Assembly: GCA_003164035.1 (NCBI GenBank)
Contig: PLRS01000056.1
Location: forward strand, 62,001-126,000
Origin: Bryobacterales bacterium
GTDB taxonomy: Bacteria > Acidobacteriota > Terriglobia > Bryobacterales > Bryobacteraceae
Length of the DNA: 64,000 nt
Direction of reading: 5' to 3'
Position numbers and translations under genes: made by a program. The notes beneath the pieces are model-generated. The model saw only the letters and a list, made by a program, of their open reading frames with translations, made no database searches and had not been told where the DNA came from. This document shows, piece after piece, positions 2,817 through 43,390 of the stretch (positions are counted from its first letter, which is position 1; the number at the start of each line of letters is the position of its first letter).

Positions 2817-2920
2817 CCTAACCGATCTGGGGATTTCCTGGTTAGGCGCGCCAACCGCGCCCCGACGGACTCGGCTCGGTTACAGCACCGCGTGTTTTCA
2901 ATTACTTACCGAACGACTCC
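2817..2920. repeat. Degenerate copy of the dispersed palindromic repeat
   Basis: The sequence from CTAACCGATCTGGGGATTTC through GGCGCGCCAACCGC, CGGCTCGGTTACAG and ACTTACCGA matches, in the same order, the reverse complement of the element at 26547-26690. The palindrome arms are eroded here. It fills most of the 284-base gap between the small secreted protein and the transglutaminase-like gene; I see no gene in that gap. Confidence 0.6.
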
Positions 2921-2979
2921 ATGGCGCACCGCCTGCCGCCGGCGCGCGAGCGAGCCGCTGAAATCGGGCCCCCCGAGAA

Positions 2980-8266: not shown

Positions 8267-10290
8267 CGGGCCGCGCCGCGAGGCGGGAAAAGATGAGACG
8301 GGCCGCCACGCCGGCTGCCGGATGGCTGAGCCGGGTCTTGGAAGCGCAAACGGCGGGCCGGCTGGACGAGGCCGAGAAGCTTTGCCGCCAAGCGCTCGCG
8401 CACAACTCCGCGCAACCGGATGCCTGTTACCTTCTGGCCCAGAACCTGAAACAACGGGGAAAGCTCCGGGAAGCGGCCATCCTGGCGGCGCGCGCGGCCG
8501 ACGGGAGGCCGTCCGAACCGGTATTTCACCAGGGGCTGGGCGATATTCTGCAGGCCAGGAACGAATGCCAGGCCGCTTTACTGTGCTACCGGCAGGCGCT
8601 GGCGTTGCAGCCCGATCTCGTCCCGGCGCTGGTCAACCTGGGCAACACTTTGCAACGGATGGGCCGGTTCCGGGAGGCGCAAATCAGTTACGGCCGCGCC
8701 ATCCAGGCCGATCCACGATGCGCCGAGGCTTATGACAATCTCGGCAACGCCTTGCGCGGCGAGGGACGGACCGAAGAATCGCTAGCGTGTCATGCCGAAG
8801 CGCTGCGGCTGCAGCCCGGCTACCCGCAAGCGCTGGTAAACACGGCCGCGGCCTTGCTGGCCCTGGGCCGCTTCGCCGAGGCGGAACGCGCCGCGCGGCA
8901 GGCTTTTGAAACGGCGCCGGAATTGCACGAAGCGGCATCGAACCTTGGGGTCGCGCTGGAGAAACTGGGGCGCCTGGCGGATGCCGAACAGTGTCTCCGC
9001 GCGGCAATCCATCGATTTCCGCGGCAGGCGTATCTTTGCGTCAACCTGGCCAGCGTTTTGCTCCGCGGGAAGCGCGCGGAAGAAGCCGAGGGTTGGTGCC
9101 GGCGCGCGCTCCAGATCCAGCCCGGATCGGCCGAGGCATACTTCAACCTCGGCTGCGCATTGCGGCACCTCTACCGCAACCAGGAAGCCTCGGAGGCTTA
9201 CCAATCGGCCCTGGCGCAGCGCCCGGACTATGCCGACGCGTGGGCGGAAATGGGGGCCCTCCATCTCTCCGAGAAACGGCCCCCGGAAGCTCTGGCGTGC
9301 TTCGACGAAGCCATCCGCCGGAAGCCGGACCTGGCCGTCGCCCATCTCGATCGGGCGATGGCGCTTCTGGAGGCGGGCAATTTCGACGAGGGCCTGCAGG
9401 AATACGAGTGGCGAATGAAGTGTTTCGACCGGCCCCCGCGCGGGCTGGCTTATCCCCCCTGGAGGGGCGAACTGGTGGAGGGCAAAGCCGTGCTTCTCTT
9501 CACCGAGCAGGGTTTGGGCGATACGATTCAGTTCGTGCGCTACGCGGAAATGGTGGCCACCCGCGGCTGCCGGGTGATCGTGGACTCACAGCCGCGGCTG
9601 CTTTCGCTGGTGGCCACGGCGCGGGGCGTCGATGCCGTGGTGAGCGGAGAAGCGAAATTGCCGTCGTTCGATCTGGCAGCCTCTTTGCTTAGCCTGCCGC
9701 GCATTTTCGGAACCGGCCCCGATCGGCTGCCCGCCCGGGTTCCTTATTTGCGGGTTGCGCCGGATCGCCTTGCGGCCTGGCGACTGCGCCTGCGGAAGTC
9801 GAAAGGGGTACTGGCGGGGCTGTGCTGGCGGGGCAATCCGGACAACCCGTATGACCGGAAACGCTCGATGAACTTGGCGGCCTTGGAGGAGTTGGGCCGG
9901 CTGGAGCATGTCGAATGGGTCAGCTTGCAGTTGGGCGCCGGCGCGCGGCGGGAGGCGGAGGAGGCGGGCTGGCTGCGGCAGGTGCTGCGCGACGATTCCG
10001 GCATCGACGATCTGGCGGCGGTGATGGAGGTTTTGGACGTGGTGGTATCGGTGGATTCGATGCCCGCCCACCTGGCCGGCGCGCTGGCGCGGCCGTGCCT
10101 GCTGTTGCTGCCGTACGTAGCCGACTGGCGGTGGGGGCGGGAGGGCCGAACCACCGGGTGGTATCCCACTCTCCGTCTGTTCCGCCAGCGGCAGCCGCGG
10201 GATTGGTCGGCGCCGGCCGCGGAACTGGCCGAAGCGTTGCGCGCCTGGCCGGTTCAAGCAAAACGGGGCGGGGCCGATATGAACGAATGA
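8263..10290 (+). CDS. TPR protein with C-terminal GT-B glycosyltransferase domain, candidate flagellin glycosyltransferase
   Basis: The 675-residue product has about ten tetratricopeptide repeats (residues ~15-385; for example DNLGNALRGEGRTEESLACH and AYFNLGCALRHLYRNQEASE), then a glycosyltransferase-like domain: LLFTEQGLGDTIQFVRYA, LAGLCWRGNPDNPYDRKRSM and VVVSVDSMPAHLAGALARP. The last two resemble the nucleotide-sugar-binding half of GT9/GT41-type enzymes. TPR-GT proteins of this form are common beside flagellin genes, so I infer a role in glycosylating flagellin; the sugar is unknown. GGGAGGTGA precedes the ATG, which overlaps the csrA stop. Confidence 0.8.
   Translation: MTGRAARREKMRRAATPAAGWLSRVLEAQTAGRLDEAEKLCRQALAHNSAQPDACYLLAQNLKQRGKLREAAILAARAADGRPSEPVFHQGLGDILQARNECQAALLCYRQALALQPDLVPALVNLGNTLQRMGRFREAQISYGRAIQADPRCAEAYDNLGNALRGEGRTEESLACHAEALRLQPGYPQALVNTAAALLALGRFAEAERAARQAFETAPELHEAASNLGVALEKLGRLADAEQCLRAAIHRFPRQAYLCVNLASVLLRGKRAEEAEGWCRRALQIQPGSAEAYFNLGCALRHLYRNQEASEAYQSALAQRPDYADAWAEMGALHLSEKRPPEALACFDEAIRRKPDLAVAHLDRAMALLEAGNFDEGLQEYEWRMKCFDRPPRGLAYPPWRGELVEGKAVLLFTEQGLGDTIQFVRYAEMVATRGCRVIVDSQPRLLSLVATARGVDAVVSGEAKLPSFDLAASLLSLPRIFGTGPDRLPARVPYLRVAPDRLAAWRLRLRKSKGVLAGLCWRGNPDNPYDRKRSMNLAALEELGRLEHVEWVSLQLGAGARREAEEAGWLRQVLRDDSGIDDLAAVMEVLDVVVSVDSMPAHLAGALARPCLLLLPYVADWRWGREGRTTGWYPTLRLFRQRQPRDWSAPAAELAEALRAWPVQAKRGGADMNE
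10254..10280 (+). promoter_or_regulatory. Sigma-28-like promoter of flagellin
   Basis: TCAA, 15 bases, GCCGATAT. The spacing is exactly that of the sigma-28 consensus TAAA-N15-GCCGATAA. It lies in the last codons of the glycosyltransferase gene and would give a leader of about 75 bases before the flagellin ATG. Confidence 0.55.
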
Positions 10291-26500: not shown

Positions 26501-26546
26501 CCAGCTATCACGGAAGGCGCCGGTAGAGGCTAAGCCGCACCGGTGC

Positions 26547-26690
26547 CTAACTGATCTTGGGAAATCCGTTCCGGGCAACCGCTCCCTCACGGTCGCGGCT
26601 CGGTAAGTGAATGCAAACACACGGCATCTGTAACCGAGCCGCGACCGTGAGGGAGCGGTTGCCGCGCCTAAATTGCGAAATCCCGAGATC
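26547..26690. repeat. Palindromic intergenic repeat, best copy
   Basis: A perfect 30-bp inverted repeat (26575-26604 with 26633-26662; GCAACCGCTCCCTCACGGTC and onwards) surrounds a 28-base loop. Outside it, CTGATCTTGGGAAATCCG and GAAATCCCGAGATCGG form weaker outer arms. The element fills most of the gap between the TPR-like and FmdB-type genes. Related copies are at 2817-2920, 28509-28556 (half), 29704-29773 and, as short arms, 43189-43332. Confidence 0.85.
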
Positions 26691-26779
26691 GGTAGAGCAC
26701 CCGGGTCCCACCAGTACCAAACTTCGGCTGTGCGGCTTGCTATACTGAAGTTAAGTCCTGGGGGACCCGATTTTCAGTC

Positions 26780-27076
26780 ATGCCCCTTTACGAATATCAA
26801 TGTGAAGGCTGTGGGAAGACGTTTGAGCTGATTCAAAAGTTCTCGGACGAGCCCTTGACGGTTCACGGCGAGTGCGGCGGCGCAGTCCGGCGCCTGATCT
26901 CGCCGTCAGCTCTGCAGTTCAAGGGAACCGGTTGGTATGTAACGGATTACGCGCGCGGAAACAGTTCGGGGTCGAACGGCGGAAACGGCCATAAGGATGG
27001 CCGGACCGAGCCGAAATCCGAAACCAAATCCGAGCCGAAATCCGAAACCAAGTCGGAAACCAAGCCCGCCAGCTAA
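26780..27076 (+). CDS. FmdB-type zinc ribbon protein
   Basis: The 98-residue product starts MPLYEYQCEGCGKTFELIQK, the diagnostic start of the FmdB regulatory-protein family; CEGC and a later C in GECGG form the zinc ribbon. FKGTGWYVTDYAR is also typical. The tail from residue ~76 is a tandem EPKSETKS-type repeat, charged and surely disordered. Members are often of unknown role, sometimes linked to C1 metabolism regulation. Its stop abuts that of the convergent PilZ gene. Confidence 0.88.
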   Translation: MPLYEYQCEGCGKTFELIQKFSDEPLTVHGECGGAVRRLISPSALQFKGTGWYVTDYARGNSSGSNGGNGHKDGRTEPKSETKSEPKSETKSETKPAS

Positions 27077-27523
27077 TTACGCGCCACAGGCTGCCACGGA
27101 TTTCACGGCAACCTTGCGGTAAGAATCGACGAAGCGATAGAACGCCGGGTCTACGCGCACCGCCGGTTCCGAGGGTCGTGTCGTGCGCGCCTGGGTCCTG
27201 AACTCGTACTTGTCGATGGAGCAGACGGCCCGTGGTCCATCCGAGCGCAGCACCCTGCCGTAAGTCACCAGGCGCACCGGGCACTGGTCGTCCAACTTCA
27301 CCGGCCAGGCGATGGAGATTTCGGCGAAGGTATCTGTTTTCATAGGATTGGCAGCCAAGAAAGCCACGCCGCCGCTGCCCAAATCGATAGTCACGCCAAC
27401 TCCCGAGCCGATCACGATATCGTTTTCGATCAGCTTGAAACGCATTTCTCTGTGCAAGCGAAAGCGCATCTTCGTGCGCCGATCCGTGGCTTCCGCCACC
27501 GCTCTGGATTTCTGGTTCCGCAT
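27077..27523 (-). CDS. PilZ domain protein
   Basis: The 148-residue product has the two c-di-GMP-binding signatures of PilZ in usual order: a basic RRTKMRFRLHREMRF stretch (RxxxR) and TIDLGSGGVAF (D/N-x-S-x-x-G). AGGAGG precedes the ATG by eight bases. It is a single-domain PilZ protein, so a c-di-GMP receptor acting on an unknown partner is the likely role. Confidence 0.8.
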   Translation of the reverse strand: MRNQKSRAVAEATDRRTKMRFRLHREMRFKLIENDIVIGSGVGVTIDLGSGGVAFLAANPMKTDTFAEISIAWPVKLDDQCPVRLVTYGRVLRSDGPRAVCSIDKYEFRTQARTTRPSEPAVRVDPAFYRFVDSYRKVAVKSVAACGA

Positions 27524-27681
27524 TCCTCCGCACGCCTCCTAAGGGTTTACGACTTAAGTACAATGCACGCCGCTAACCGAAGTATTTCCATTTTAGAATC
27601 AATAAGTTAGCAGGCAAGTGAAAAGCGAGTGCCTACGGCCTGTACAGATTGCTGTAAAGCCGGTGGACGGCGGCGGTTCGT

Positions 27682-28416
27682 TCAGAGAGTGGAGGCGATG
27701 GCGGGGGCAACCGAGGGATGGGGCGGATCGCTCTTTGGTTTACGGTGGAATACGGCTTTGACGTCGGGCCAGAACTCGCGCACGAAGTTGCCTATGGCGA
27801 AGCTGCCCATGTTAGCGCTGCCCCAACCGAAGATGGAGCGGGCGTTTCTCAGTTCCGGCGGGCTCCATAGGGTGGCAATCGCCCAACTCCCGTAGGCGTT
27901 GGCGGCCACCGAAAACGCGAAGGTGTGGTGATCGCCGGGCCGGCGCGCTACCAACGTACCGGTGACCACGTGGCTGGTCCGGCGGAAGAAGTTCCCCGTT
28001 GCCAGCCGGCGGTAGGCGGTATCTTCCTTGTCCAGAGCGCGTACTCCATCCTCGATGGCGGCTCCCACCACGAACTGACCGTACAGGGATGCCACGCGCT
28101 TACCCAGGCCAAACCGATTGCGCGGCCACTCGTTCGGCCAATCGTGGAGTTGCTCCATAAGCGCGCCAGGCACCGTGGCGGTGAAAGCTTCCAAGGTGAA
28201 CATGCGCTTCCAGAAGGCCGCCTTGCGGAGGGCTTGCGCCGGATTGGCCTTGGCTGCAACCGGCGCCGGGACAGCAGCGGCGTCCGGGGAGGGTGCGGGA
28301 ACCGGCGGGCCTGACGCCGCGGTGTGTGCGGCCGGTGAAGCCAGCCCTTCTTGCGCGCGGCCAATCGCGGCCGCCGCCAGGGTAAAGACACAAACGAGCA
28401 ACAAGACTGCTTTCAA
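27682..28416 (-). CDS. Secreted or membrane-associated protein of unknown function
   Basis: The 244-residue product begins at TTG 28416 with AAGGA about nine bases upstream. It has a signal peptide (LLLVCVFTLAAAAIGRAQ) and an Ala/Pro-rich linker to residue ~60. The rest has weakly hydrophobic helices rich in Gly and aromatic residues (LEAFTATVPGALMEQLHDWP, FAFSVAANAYGSWAIATLW). I recognise no family; similar proteins occur in Acidobacteria. Confidence 0.65.
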   Translation of the reverse strand: MKAVLLLVCVFTLAAAAIGRAQEGLASPAAHTAASGPPVPAPSPDAAAVPAPVAAKANPAQALRKAAFWKRMFTLEAFTATVPGALMEQLHDWPNEWPRNRFGLGKRVASLYGQFVVGAAIEDGVRALDKEDTAYRRLATGNFFRRTSHVVTGTLVARRPGDHHTFAFSVAANAYGSWAIATLWSPPELRNARSIFGWGSANMGSFAIGNFVREFWPDVKAVFHRKPKSDPPHPSVAPAIASTL

Positions 28417-28508
28417 AAAACCGATCCTTCTATTTAAGCTGCCGGCAGAGTATCCCCCGATTGTAGTACAAACCGCCAGGTTCTTAATGTTTTTGACAGC
28501 CTACGAGT

Positions 28509-28556
28509 ACTTAACCGATCTGGGACAATCCGTTCCCGGCAACAGTTCCCTTATGG
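28509..28556. repeat. Half copy of the palindromic repeat
   Basis: CTTAACCGATCTGGGACAAT and CCGTTCCCGGCAACAGTTCC match the left part of the element at 26547-26690, but no second arm follows. It lies just at the 3' end of the downstream minus-strand glycosyltransferase gene. Confidence 0.5.
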
Positions 28557-29666
28557 ATCGGCCGCGTCGCGCAAGGCGGCCAGGGTTTGCTCCGCGGTGG
28601 TGCGCCAGGAATAGCGGGCGGCCTGGATAGGGCCGGCGGCGGCAAGGCGCTGGCGCAATTCGTCGTCGCCAGCCAGCCGCTCCAGGGCTAGCGCCAGAGC
28701 GGGCGTATCTTCGGGGGCGAACAGAAGGGCCGCCTGGCCGGCTACGGTCGCCACCGGTTCCACCGCCGAGCAGGCGGAGGGGATGCCGGCGGCGAGCGCT
28801 TCCACCACAGGCAAGCCAAATCCCTCGAACGTCGAGGGATACACGAACGCCCAGGCGCGGGCGTAGAGGTCGTAAAGGTCTTCGCGCGGAATCCAGCCGG
28901 GAAAATCGACGGCATTGGCCAAGCCCAACTCGCCGCGGAGGGCGAACAATTCGCGTGCCGCGAAGCCGTGTATGCCGGTCACCACCAAACGGAACTGGGG
29001 CCGGCCGGCCCGGAACGCCGCGAAAGCCCGCAACAGGCGGTCGAGATTCTTGTGGGGATGCAAGGTGGAGACGGCGAGCAGAAACGGTTCCGGCCGGCGG
29101 CACCGGGCGATGCCGAAACAGCGCTCGTCGGTGCCCATGGCGACCACACGGATGTGCGAATCCGGGAGGCGATAGAAGCGTTTCAAGTCGGCGGCGGAAG
29201 CGGGTGAATCCGCCAGCAGCAGCGTGGAAATTCGCGCCGACCAGAACAGGAAGAAATTCCAAAAGGGCAGATCGAACCAACGGAAGTGCTCGGGGTGGCG
29301 CTTATGCTGCAAGTCGTGGAAGACGGTGACCTGGGGACAGGGGCATGCCAGCGGAGCGGTAAACCCGGGGTTCAGCATCACATCCAGGTTCTCCCGCACG
29401 GCGGCCAGCGGCAGTCCGGTCTGTTCCCACAAAAGGCGCGCCGGCCGGTTGGCGGAACGGATAGGCTGAACCAGGGAACGAAAGTTCCCGGCGGGCGGAG
29501 TCAGGTCCTGGCCAGCTTCGCGCCCGGTGAAGACCGAATAACGATTCAACGGATCGATTTTCGCCAGCGCATCGAGGAGCGAGCGAAGGTAGATTTCCGT
29601 GCCTCCGACGCCTCCCGGAATCAGATAGAGCGCGTTGACGCCGATGCGCAGCGGTCGACTAGCCAC
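28551..29666 (-). CDS. Glycosyltransferase family 4 (group 1) protein
   Basis: The 371-residue product is a retaining GT-B enzyme. The N-terminal domain begins RIGVNALYLIPGGVGGTEIY; the C-terminal domain has VSTLHPHKNLDRLLRAFA, the loop FPGWIPREDLYDLYARAWAF and the EX7E-type YPSTFEGFGLPVVEALAAGI. GTG start. It is the last gene of a minus-strand surface-glycan cluster. Donor and acceptor are unknown. Confidence 0.9.
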   Translation of the reverse strand: MASRPLRIGVNALYLIPGGVGGTEIYLRSLLDALAKIDPLNRYSVFTGREAGQDLTPPAGNFRSLVQPIRSANRPARLLWEQTGLPLAAVRENLDVMLNPGFTAPLACPCPQVTVFHDLQHKRHPEHFRWFDLPFWNFFLFWSARISTLLLADSPASAADLKRFYRLPDSHIRVVAMGTDERCFGIARCRRPEPFLLAVSTLHPHKNLDRLLRAFAAFRAGRPQFRLVVTGIHGFAARELFALRGELGLANAVDFPGWIPREDLYDLYARAWAFVYPSTFEGFGLPVVEALAAGIPSACSAVEPVATVAGQAALLFAPEDTPALALALERLAGDDELRQRLAAAGPIQAARYSWRTTAEQTLAALRDAADP

Positions 29667-29703
29667 GGGCGACGCCTTGGGGGCTGGTTCTCCAATAAGG
29701 GCA

Positions 29704-29773
29704 GCAACCGCTCCCTCGCGGTCGCGGCTCGGAAACGCGCGAAACCGAGCCGCGACCGCGAGGGAGCGGTTGC
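29704..29773. repeat. Palindromic intergenic repeat, short-loop copy
   Basis: A perfect 29-bp inverted repeat (29704-29732 with 29745-29773) with a 12-base loop. The arms differ from those at 26575 by one base (CTCGCGG for CTCACGG), changed on both arms, so pairing is kept. It lies between two minus-strand genes of the glycan cluster. Confidence 0.85.
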
Positions 29774-43164: not shown

Positions 43165-43188
43165 ACGGAGGGCGGTCGTCTCCACCTC

Positions 43189-43332
43189 GGCAACCGCTCC
43201 CTGGGAAGCTGTTAAAAATGACAAATCGCAGGCGGAACCGCCTGCGCCACCAAAGCAGGTGCATTGTTTTCAATGGTGGAGCAGGCAGTTCCGCCTGCTC
43301 AGCGTGTTTTTTCACAGCTTCTGGCGGTTGCC
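43189..43332. repeat. MITE-like nested hairpin element
   Basis: Outer arms GGCAACCGC (43189-43197) and GCGGTTGCC (43324-43332) match the ends of the palindromic repeat family. Inside lie a second pair GAAGCTGT/ACAGCTTC (43205-43212, 43314-43321) and two hairpins: CGCAGGCGGAACCGCCTGCG (43227-43246) and GAGCAGGC...GCCTGCTC (43279-43300). No coding capacity. It lies between the decayed propeller fragment and murI. Confidence 0.7.
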
Positions 43333-43390
43333 CGGAAGTACGATAGCAAACTTATGAAGTTGTGCACCTGGTAATGGAAAGGATCTTCGG

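Follow-up and report, generated by a model that had tools for sequence, protein, structure and literature searches.

The window analysed here, 64,000 nucleotides covering positions 62001-126000 of contig C164, comes from the draft genome of a Bryobacterales bacterium (G000; 8,012,244 bases in 169 contigs) and contains two perfect inverted repeats. The first has 31-nt arms (26574-26604 and 26633-26663) around a loop of 28 bases, the second 29-nt arms (29704-29732 and 29745-29773) around a loop of 12 bases; a first-pass annotation of the sequence had already noticed both, as a 29-30 bp repeat. The two copies are distinguished by a single arm base, which is A or G and is altered on both sides. 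A 24-nt arm pattern (up to three mismatches) has four matches in the window, compared with 0.01 expected from shuffled sequence. We propose that these palindromes are very probably REPINs, that is, inverted pairs of a repetitive extragenic palindromic (REP) element of the class 3 TnpA_Y1/REP kind, with the partner HUH-Y1 gene located elsewhere in the genome. To test further copies in the window, we aligned them locally with the 163-bp consensus of the element, using shuffled controls. This recovered a degenerate copy and a half copy that had been placed at 2817-2920 and 28509-28556, with slightly shifted borders (Table 1). Arm remnants claimed at 43189-43332 fared less well: a full element was not recovered from 43170-43350, where the best alignment score stays below the shuffled maximum, and by eye the region holds just the 14-nt arm remnant GGCAACCGCTCCCT and a GGTTGCC end.

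Table 1. The REP family in the window (window coordinates; MITE, miniature inverted-repeat transposable element).
Feature	Position	Strand	Remarks
Type 1 MITE-like element, 162 bp, central REP pair	26541..26702	.	ends related to GGGTGCTTAACCGATCTGGGG; target duplication decayed (5/9 by eye)
REP 1: foot CCGAG and 20-nt hairpin core (core 26579-26598)	26579..26603	-	
Spacer (loop) of first REP pair, 28 nt	26605..26632	.	
REP 2: foot CCGAG and hairpin core (core 26639-26658)	26634..26658	+	
REP 3: foot and hairpin core (core 29708-29727), loop G variant	29708..29732	-	
Spacer of second REP pair, 12 nt, AAACGCGCGAAA	29733..29744	.	
REP 4: foot and hairpin core (core 29750-29769)	29745..29769	+	
Half copy of type 1 MITE: one end and decayed arm	28507..28575	.	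alignment score 67, shuffled maximum 45
Degenerate type 1 MITE copy	2819..2932	.	alignment score 131, shuffled maximum 46
Possible arm remnants, weak	43188..43332	.	alignment score 40, shuffled maximum 45

One REP is 25 nt long and consists of a 5' foot, CCGAG, and the 20-nt hairpin CCGC-GA-CC-GYNA-GG-GA-GCGG (search pattern: CCGAGCCGCGACCGYNAGGGAGCGG). Folded as DNA, the single strand CCGAG-CCGCGACCGTGAGGGAGCGG forms CCGC/GCGG and CC/GG stems with a GA/GA mismatch between them and the loop GTGA; tandem GA mismatches are stable in DNA. Arrangement and location were counted in 1.236 Mb of the G000 genome, to which the following pair statistics refer. In the 76 arms of 38 pairs, 18 of the 20 core positions deviate in at most three arms, and the variable positions 10 and 11 lie in the inner loop. 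The arms had been called compensated on account of the A/G base; a base does differ on both arms, but it is the variable loop position 11. The two arms of a pair agree at this position in 31/38 pairs (18.8 when re-paired at random) and at position 10 in 22/38 (14.4 when re-paired), and identical 20-nt arms are found in only 12/38 pairs. Compensation occurs within single arms. Positions 8 and 13, which pair with each other in the small hairpin, carry T-A for C-G in 4/120 G000 arms and in 6/38 arms of Legionella shakespearei, and in seven REP pairs with T-A at 8/13 the partner arm retains C-G, leading to mismatches in the long hairpin. Because these changes are compensated within one arm and leave the partner arm as it was, constraint acts on the fold of the single REP hairpin and not on that of the long one; it is at this level that the conserved secondary structure sought by the first-pass annotation exists.

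The repeat is not confined to a few copies. Across the whole genome the 29-nt arm (up to three mismatches) occurs 274+280 times and the 20-nt core CCGCGACCGYNAGGGAGCGG (up to one mismatch) 305+288 = 593 times, with 0 matches in either backward control. The 120 arms found at up to three mismatches in the 1.236 Mb comprise 38 pairs and 44 singles. Inverted order is identical in 38/38 pairs, and the commonest distances between the cores of a pair are 22 bases (8 pairs) and 40 bases (17 pairs). This high-copy arrangement of paired, inverted REPs separated by a short spacer is what characterises a REPIN. Using genes predicted by a simple codon-usage caller made for this analysis, 101 of 115 arms (up to two mismatches) are intergenic, whereas intergenic DNA makes up 15.5% of the sequence (binomial P 6e-66). 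Of the other 14 arms, 13 are found no further than 100 bases from an end of a predicted gene. In another genome, G015, arms were seen about 40 bases or less from the ends of contigs C30, C59, C147, C149, C157, C183, C212 and C253, so that the repeats seem to break assemblies.

No REP transposase gene had been seen in the window, which is correct for Y1_Tnp: the G000 genome has 12 PF01797 (Y1_Tnp) matches and its contig C164 has none. The cognate gene is nevertheless present elsewhere in the genome. An HUH-Y1 gene at G000:C48:9609-10103 (164 aa) has REP cores on both sides, at 9570 and 10120, each with the CCGAG foot, and a second, truncated copy of the gene, G000:C1:6979-7143, has a core immediately upstream. 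Together with copy number, extragenic location and the conserved single-REP hairpin, this REP-flanked gene supports the REP-like behaviour that had been suspected from the window. Ten G000 Y1_Tnp loci (L031-L040) have no good arm, only three 3-mismatch matches of a loose 17-nt pattern. Cores on both sides were found in 9/11 fetched loci of the subfamily, and the remaining two genes are at or near contig ends; nine control Y1_Tnp loci (from G061, G071, G165, G191, G160 and G201) have 0 cores within 1.5 kb. The downstream core starts 5-10 bases past the conserved domain in 17/73 class 3 loci (one gene counted twice), drawn from both phyla in which this REP occurs. The G000 protein carries the motifs SHVH, WA and YVVEEQ. 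In an alignment of nine subfamily members (A1), the other eight rows have NHVH, and the fourth residue of the Y motif is H or N in several rows. A PDB sequence search gave 0 matches at E 0.1. The best PDB matches of a predicted model of the protein are IS200/IS608-type TnpA (Z up to 13.5), with TnpA-REP 4er8 at Z 10.6.

Class 3 TnpA_Y1 proteins are described with the motifs NHVH, W[TA] and YV[VI][AENY]EQ, their carriers being Planctomycetes, Acidobacteria and Proteobacteria, and the genes are flanked by atypical structures with the foot CnGA, of which about 600 copies are reported in Solibacter usitatus Ellin6076 (Quentin et al., 2018; PMC6006769). Judged by its motifs and the CCGA foot, the G000 system appears to be a member of this published kind, which itself is already known. 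Compared with the class 3 text of that paper, it is alike in the HuH-Y1 protein of similar size, the occurrence in Acidobacteria and Proteobacteria, the W[TA] and Y motifs, the flanking CnGA-foot hairpins and the high copy number, and unlike in having SHVH in place of NHVH. What goes beyond this text are REP pairs in a MITE, identity of the REP across phyla and covariation of the stem; the word Legionella is absent from the main text. A GTAG REP with a class 2 TnpA-REP was considered and rejected, given the CCGAG foot and a protein score of 33.8, with a REP_Tyr_transpos cut-off of 80.

The same REP is found in a second phylum. Searching a genome collection for an exact 23+23-base palindrome returned 30 stretches from Bryobacterales, Solibacter and other acidobacterial metagenome-assembled genomes (MAGs), and also from L. 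shakespearei, L. waltersii and a Proteobacteria MAG. Cores at up to two mismatches number 343 in L. shakespearei, 141 in L. waltersii and 136 in the Proteobacteria MAG (controls 0); in the wider comparisons one mismatch was allowed in relatives of G000 and two in Legionellales. When 1.236 Mb of G000 was compared with 0.26 Mb of L. shakespearei, they had two 28-base words in common, consisting of REP and foot, and no 30-base word, and the Legionella loci around the REP have 39-44% guanine plus cytosine. As the REP is the same letter for letter while the class 3 proteins of G000 and Legionellales are 40-48% identical, the REP is better conserved than the enzyme.

Gene and repeat also occur together. 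At least one core is present in 31/140 Legionellales genomes, in 28/61 genomes around and including G000 and in 34/396 genomes of an Acidobacteriota sample; the gene is present in 12/140, 17/61 (some matches in relatives being fragments) and 31/396, respectively, and in a Proteobacteria sample in 1/398, which is L. shakespearei itself (at most eight candidates were scored per genome in the Proteobacteria and Acidobacteriota samples). Among Legionellales, 12/12 gene-positive and 19/128 gene-negative genomes have a core (P 1.9e-9), and among the relatives of G000 16/17 and 12/44 (P 1.9e-6). Backward controls are not all 0 in the wider samples, with one match in G064, two in G065 and some single matches in the Acidobacteriota sample. 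The Legionella REP flanks are locally palindromic and those of L. shakespearei recur between copies, among the matches listed; such flanks might hint at insertion into pre-existing palindromes. In the Legionellales genomes G071, G128, G165 and G201, the core pairs listed stand in the opposite order from those of G000 and most of L. shakespearei. A plasmid or phage vehicle was rejected: a 90-nt repeat query has no match in plasmids or phages, plasmids likewise gave nothing for the L. shakespearei protein and phages nothing for that of G000, and a profile search of viral contigs gave 116 stretches with the peptide pattern, none encoding a relative. Single arms were seen in 25 IMG/VR viral-contig stretches (L099-L123), with several copies on three contigs.

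For a protein tree, rooted at midpoint, and a hairpin scan we used 57 of the 73 fetched class 3 loci, excluding matches of fewer than 115 model positions and two duplicates. The 11 Legionellales proteins form one clade (100/99), nested in a 34-row clade (100/99) that also includes Bryobacterales and further acidobacteria. Of the 13 acidobacterial proteins associated with this REP, 12 fall on several deep branches of the 34-row clade and one belongs to the other clade, of 23 rows, in which most loci are without such a core. GYNA-loop hairpins stand on both sides in 27/57 loci (mean 0.00 in 20 shuffles), and 48/90 class 3 hairpins have the internal GA/GA mismatch. Their stems start with CCGC, CCAC, CCAT, CCAG, GCCC, GCGC, ACAC, ACGC or ACCC. 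In ten chosen REPs, 4/6 stem pairs change on both sides and covariation is 0.82 compared with 0.16 in shuffles. These ten were hand-chosen from a hairpin scan that requires pairing, so that all cells are paired by construction (100%), and two-sided change in four stem pairs is also reached by 58/500 shuffles; independent evidence for covariation comes from the scan of the 57 loci and from the within-arm compensation at 8/13. Across class 3, stem letters covary, whereas the loop is retained, as is usually the GA/GA mismatch. One acidobacterial genome, G053, has nine class 3 profile matches; its loci L212, L222, L230, L232 and L233 are mutually diverged and three are flanked by hairpins with other stems.

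The first window palindrome has an additional layer. It lies inside an element that aligns with the consensus over its full length (Table 1), and this copy is a REP pair in a MITE, not a bare REP pair. Ends like GGGTGCTTAACCGATCTGGGG (up to two mismatches) occur 94+86 times in the genome (control 0). In the 1.236 Mb there are 18 facing end pairs less than 260 bases apart; 16 contain REP cores and two (64 and 77 bases) do not. At least seven of nine flanking bases are duplicated in 8/18 elements and in 0/306 mispaired flanks, with the duplication of the window copy decayed. With terminal inverted repeats, target duplications and no gene, the type 1 shell has the properties of a MITE. Single decayed ends are not all trustworthy, since the backward terminal repeat gives five chance matches at up to five mismatches, compared with 60 forward. 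Both core-less shells retain CGGTTGCC, part of the REP edge, which fits later deletion of the REP core. No autonomous partner was found among the five facing pairs over 260 bp in the 1.236 Mb, which are 3.5-5.7 kb apart and have no matching 9-bp flanks; of the 180 ends in the whole genome, 100 were listed. The shell ends and 9-bp duplications indicate that one subfamily has been copied in the form of a MITE that carries the REP pair as a passenger. They would also fit a MITE family alone, mobilised by a DDE transposase, with the REP-like core as no more than its central part and with an incidental HUH gene. This is improbable in our view, because 24/38 REP pairs lie outside intact shells, the HUH gene is flanked on both sides by the same core in two phyla, and other class 3 genes have covarying hairpins of their own.

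Long, stable and mostly intergenic hairpins might also be kept by selection for a host function, as transcription terminators, mRNA stabilisers or protein-binding sites. The orientation of genes neighbouring the arms is unbiased (--33, +-21, ++24, -+23; P 0.61), on which ground a regulator or terminator was rejected, and a structured RNA was rejected as well, no Rfam family reaching the gathering score in the window. The repeats are moreover patchy between genera (28/61 relatives), and compensation within single arms speaks against pairing of the long hairpin. We therefore give host-functional hairpins little chance; neither a role in gene expression nor a host benefit is indicated. Least probable of all is that fold-back copying (quasipalindrome correction) and not transposition keeps the arms alike: it would fit the agreement at loop position 11 and the locally palindromic Legionella flanks, but few pairs have identical arms, eight pairs differ between arms at 8/13, and copy number and transposase linkage are left unexplained.

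Several observations weigh against our preferred reading of the palindromes as REPINs of a class 3 system. The G000 protein has SHVH where NHVH is published and scores below the NCBIfam cut-offs, not only for RAYT (REP_Tyr_transpos, see above) but also for IS200 (24.5 of 55). Its structural model is of moderate quality (predicted local distance difference test, pLDDT, 73; predicted template modelling score, pTM, 0.70), and its matches include unrelated Thg1 rows at Z up to 9.2, close to the value for 4er8. No recognised hairpin is present on at least one side in 30/57 class 3 loci. In the Acidobacteriota sample, a core accompanies the gene in only 9/31 gene-positive genomes, compared with 25/365 gene-negative ones (P 4.6e-4); most of the core-less gene-positive genomes belong to the clade with other REPs. 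Many cores stand without a detected gene in G017 (80), G175 (61), G201 (20) and G160 (19); conversely, in G049 the gene is present but cores are absent at up to one mismatch. Finally, direct repeats of at least nine bases flank three of the 24 shell-less pairs, compared with 19/552 mispaired flanks; no regular duplication is seen at shell-less pairs, although a few of them may carry one.

Most probably, TnpA would bind foot and hairpin on single-stranded DNA, would cut and rejoin at the REP using its tyrosine, and would spread REP pairs in this way. Foot and hairpin are recognised on single-stranded DNA by the E. coli relative TnpA-REP (structure 4er8). Selection against insertion in genes may explain why surviving pairs are mostly found between genes. 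For the shell subfamily, the first window copy included, the target duplications point to a DDE-type transposase as a second route, by which the MITE would have been copied and the REP pair carried along. Genome REP copy number need then not measure transposase activity. More tentatively, class 3 TnpA and its REP may form a system that spans phyla and has an almost frozen recognition code, in which the 25-nt REP stayed unchanged between Acidobacteriota and Legionellales after one old transfer, despite the divergence of the enzymes, and in which the Bryobacterales REP pair gained a DDE-type MITE vehicle. Apparently, strongly diverged enzymes recognise one and the same repeat, which makes the REP recognition code directly testable.

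Related arrangements are known from other bacteria. REPINs have been described together with REP-associated tyrosine transposases (RAYTs) in Pseudomonas fluorescens (PMC3116915). The G000 elements differ from them in REP, foot and transposase class and are alike in the inverted pair with spacer and the few gene copies. The Pseudomonas REPINs reportedly consist of two inverted REPs and a spacer, with the transposase gene in single or few copies. QMITE2 of Coxiella burnetii is described as a MITE of 150-190 bp that has direct repeats of 7-11 nt and carries a GTAG REP; smaller REP-like versions lacking the ends exist too (PMC5896051). As presented there, it parallels the G000 shell in the REP inside a MITE, the direct repeats and the end-less smaller versions, whereas its GTAG REP is unlike that of G000, its sequence is unrelated and we see no link to a class 3 gene here. 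The GTAG- and CGTC-tagged palindromic repeats described in PMC3733652 are likewise short hairpins, present in many copies and tagged at one end; the G000 tag is CCGA(G), neither of the two. A text search of the literature with 13-14-nt REP strings found no paper, and within the literature searched class 3 is described only in PMC6006769. For class 3, this analysis adds a consensus of sequence and structure and a test of gene-repeat co-occurrence in two phyla.

Two further repeats were noticed in the window. Between the arm remnants, at 43230-43300, lies a second palindromic repeat around GGCAGGCGGAACCGCCTGCC, which is also found beside another C164 arm near 28026 and probably represents a different small repeat family. 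At 27006-27065, the KSEPKSET-like tail of a 98-aa open reading frame is encoded by four overlapping 24-nt copies in 12-base steps.

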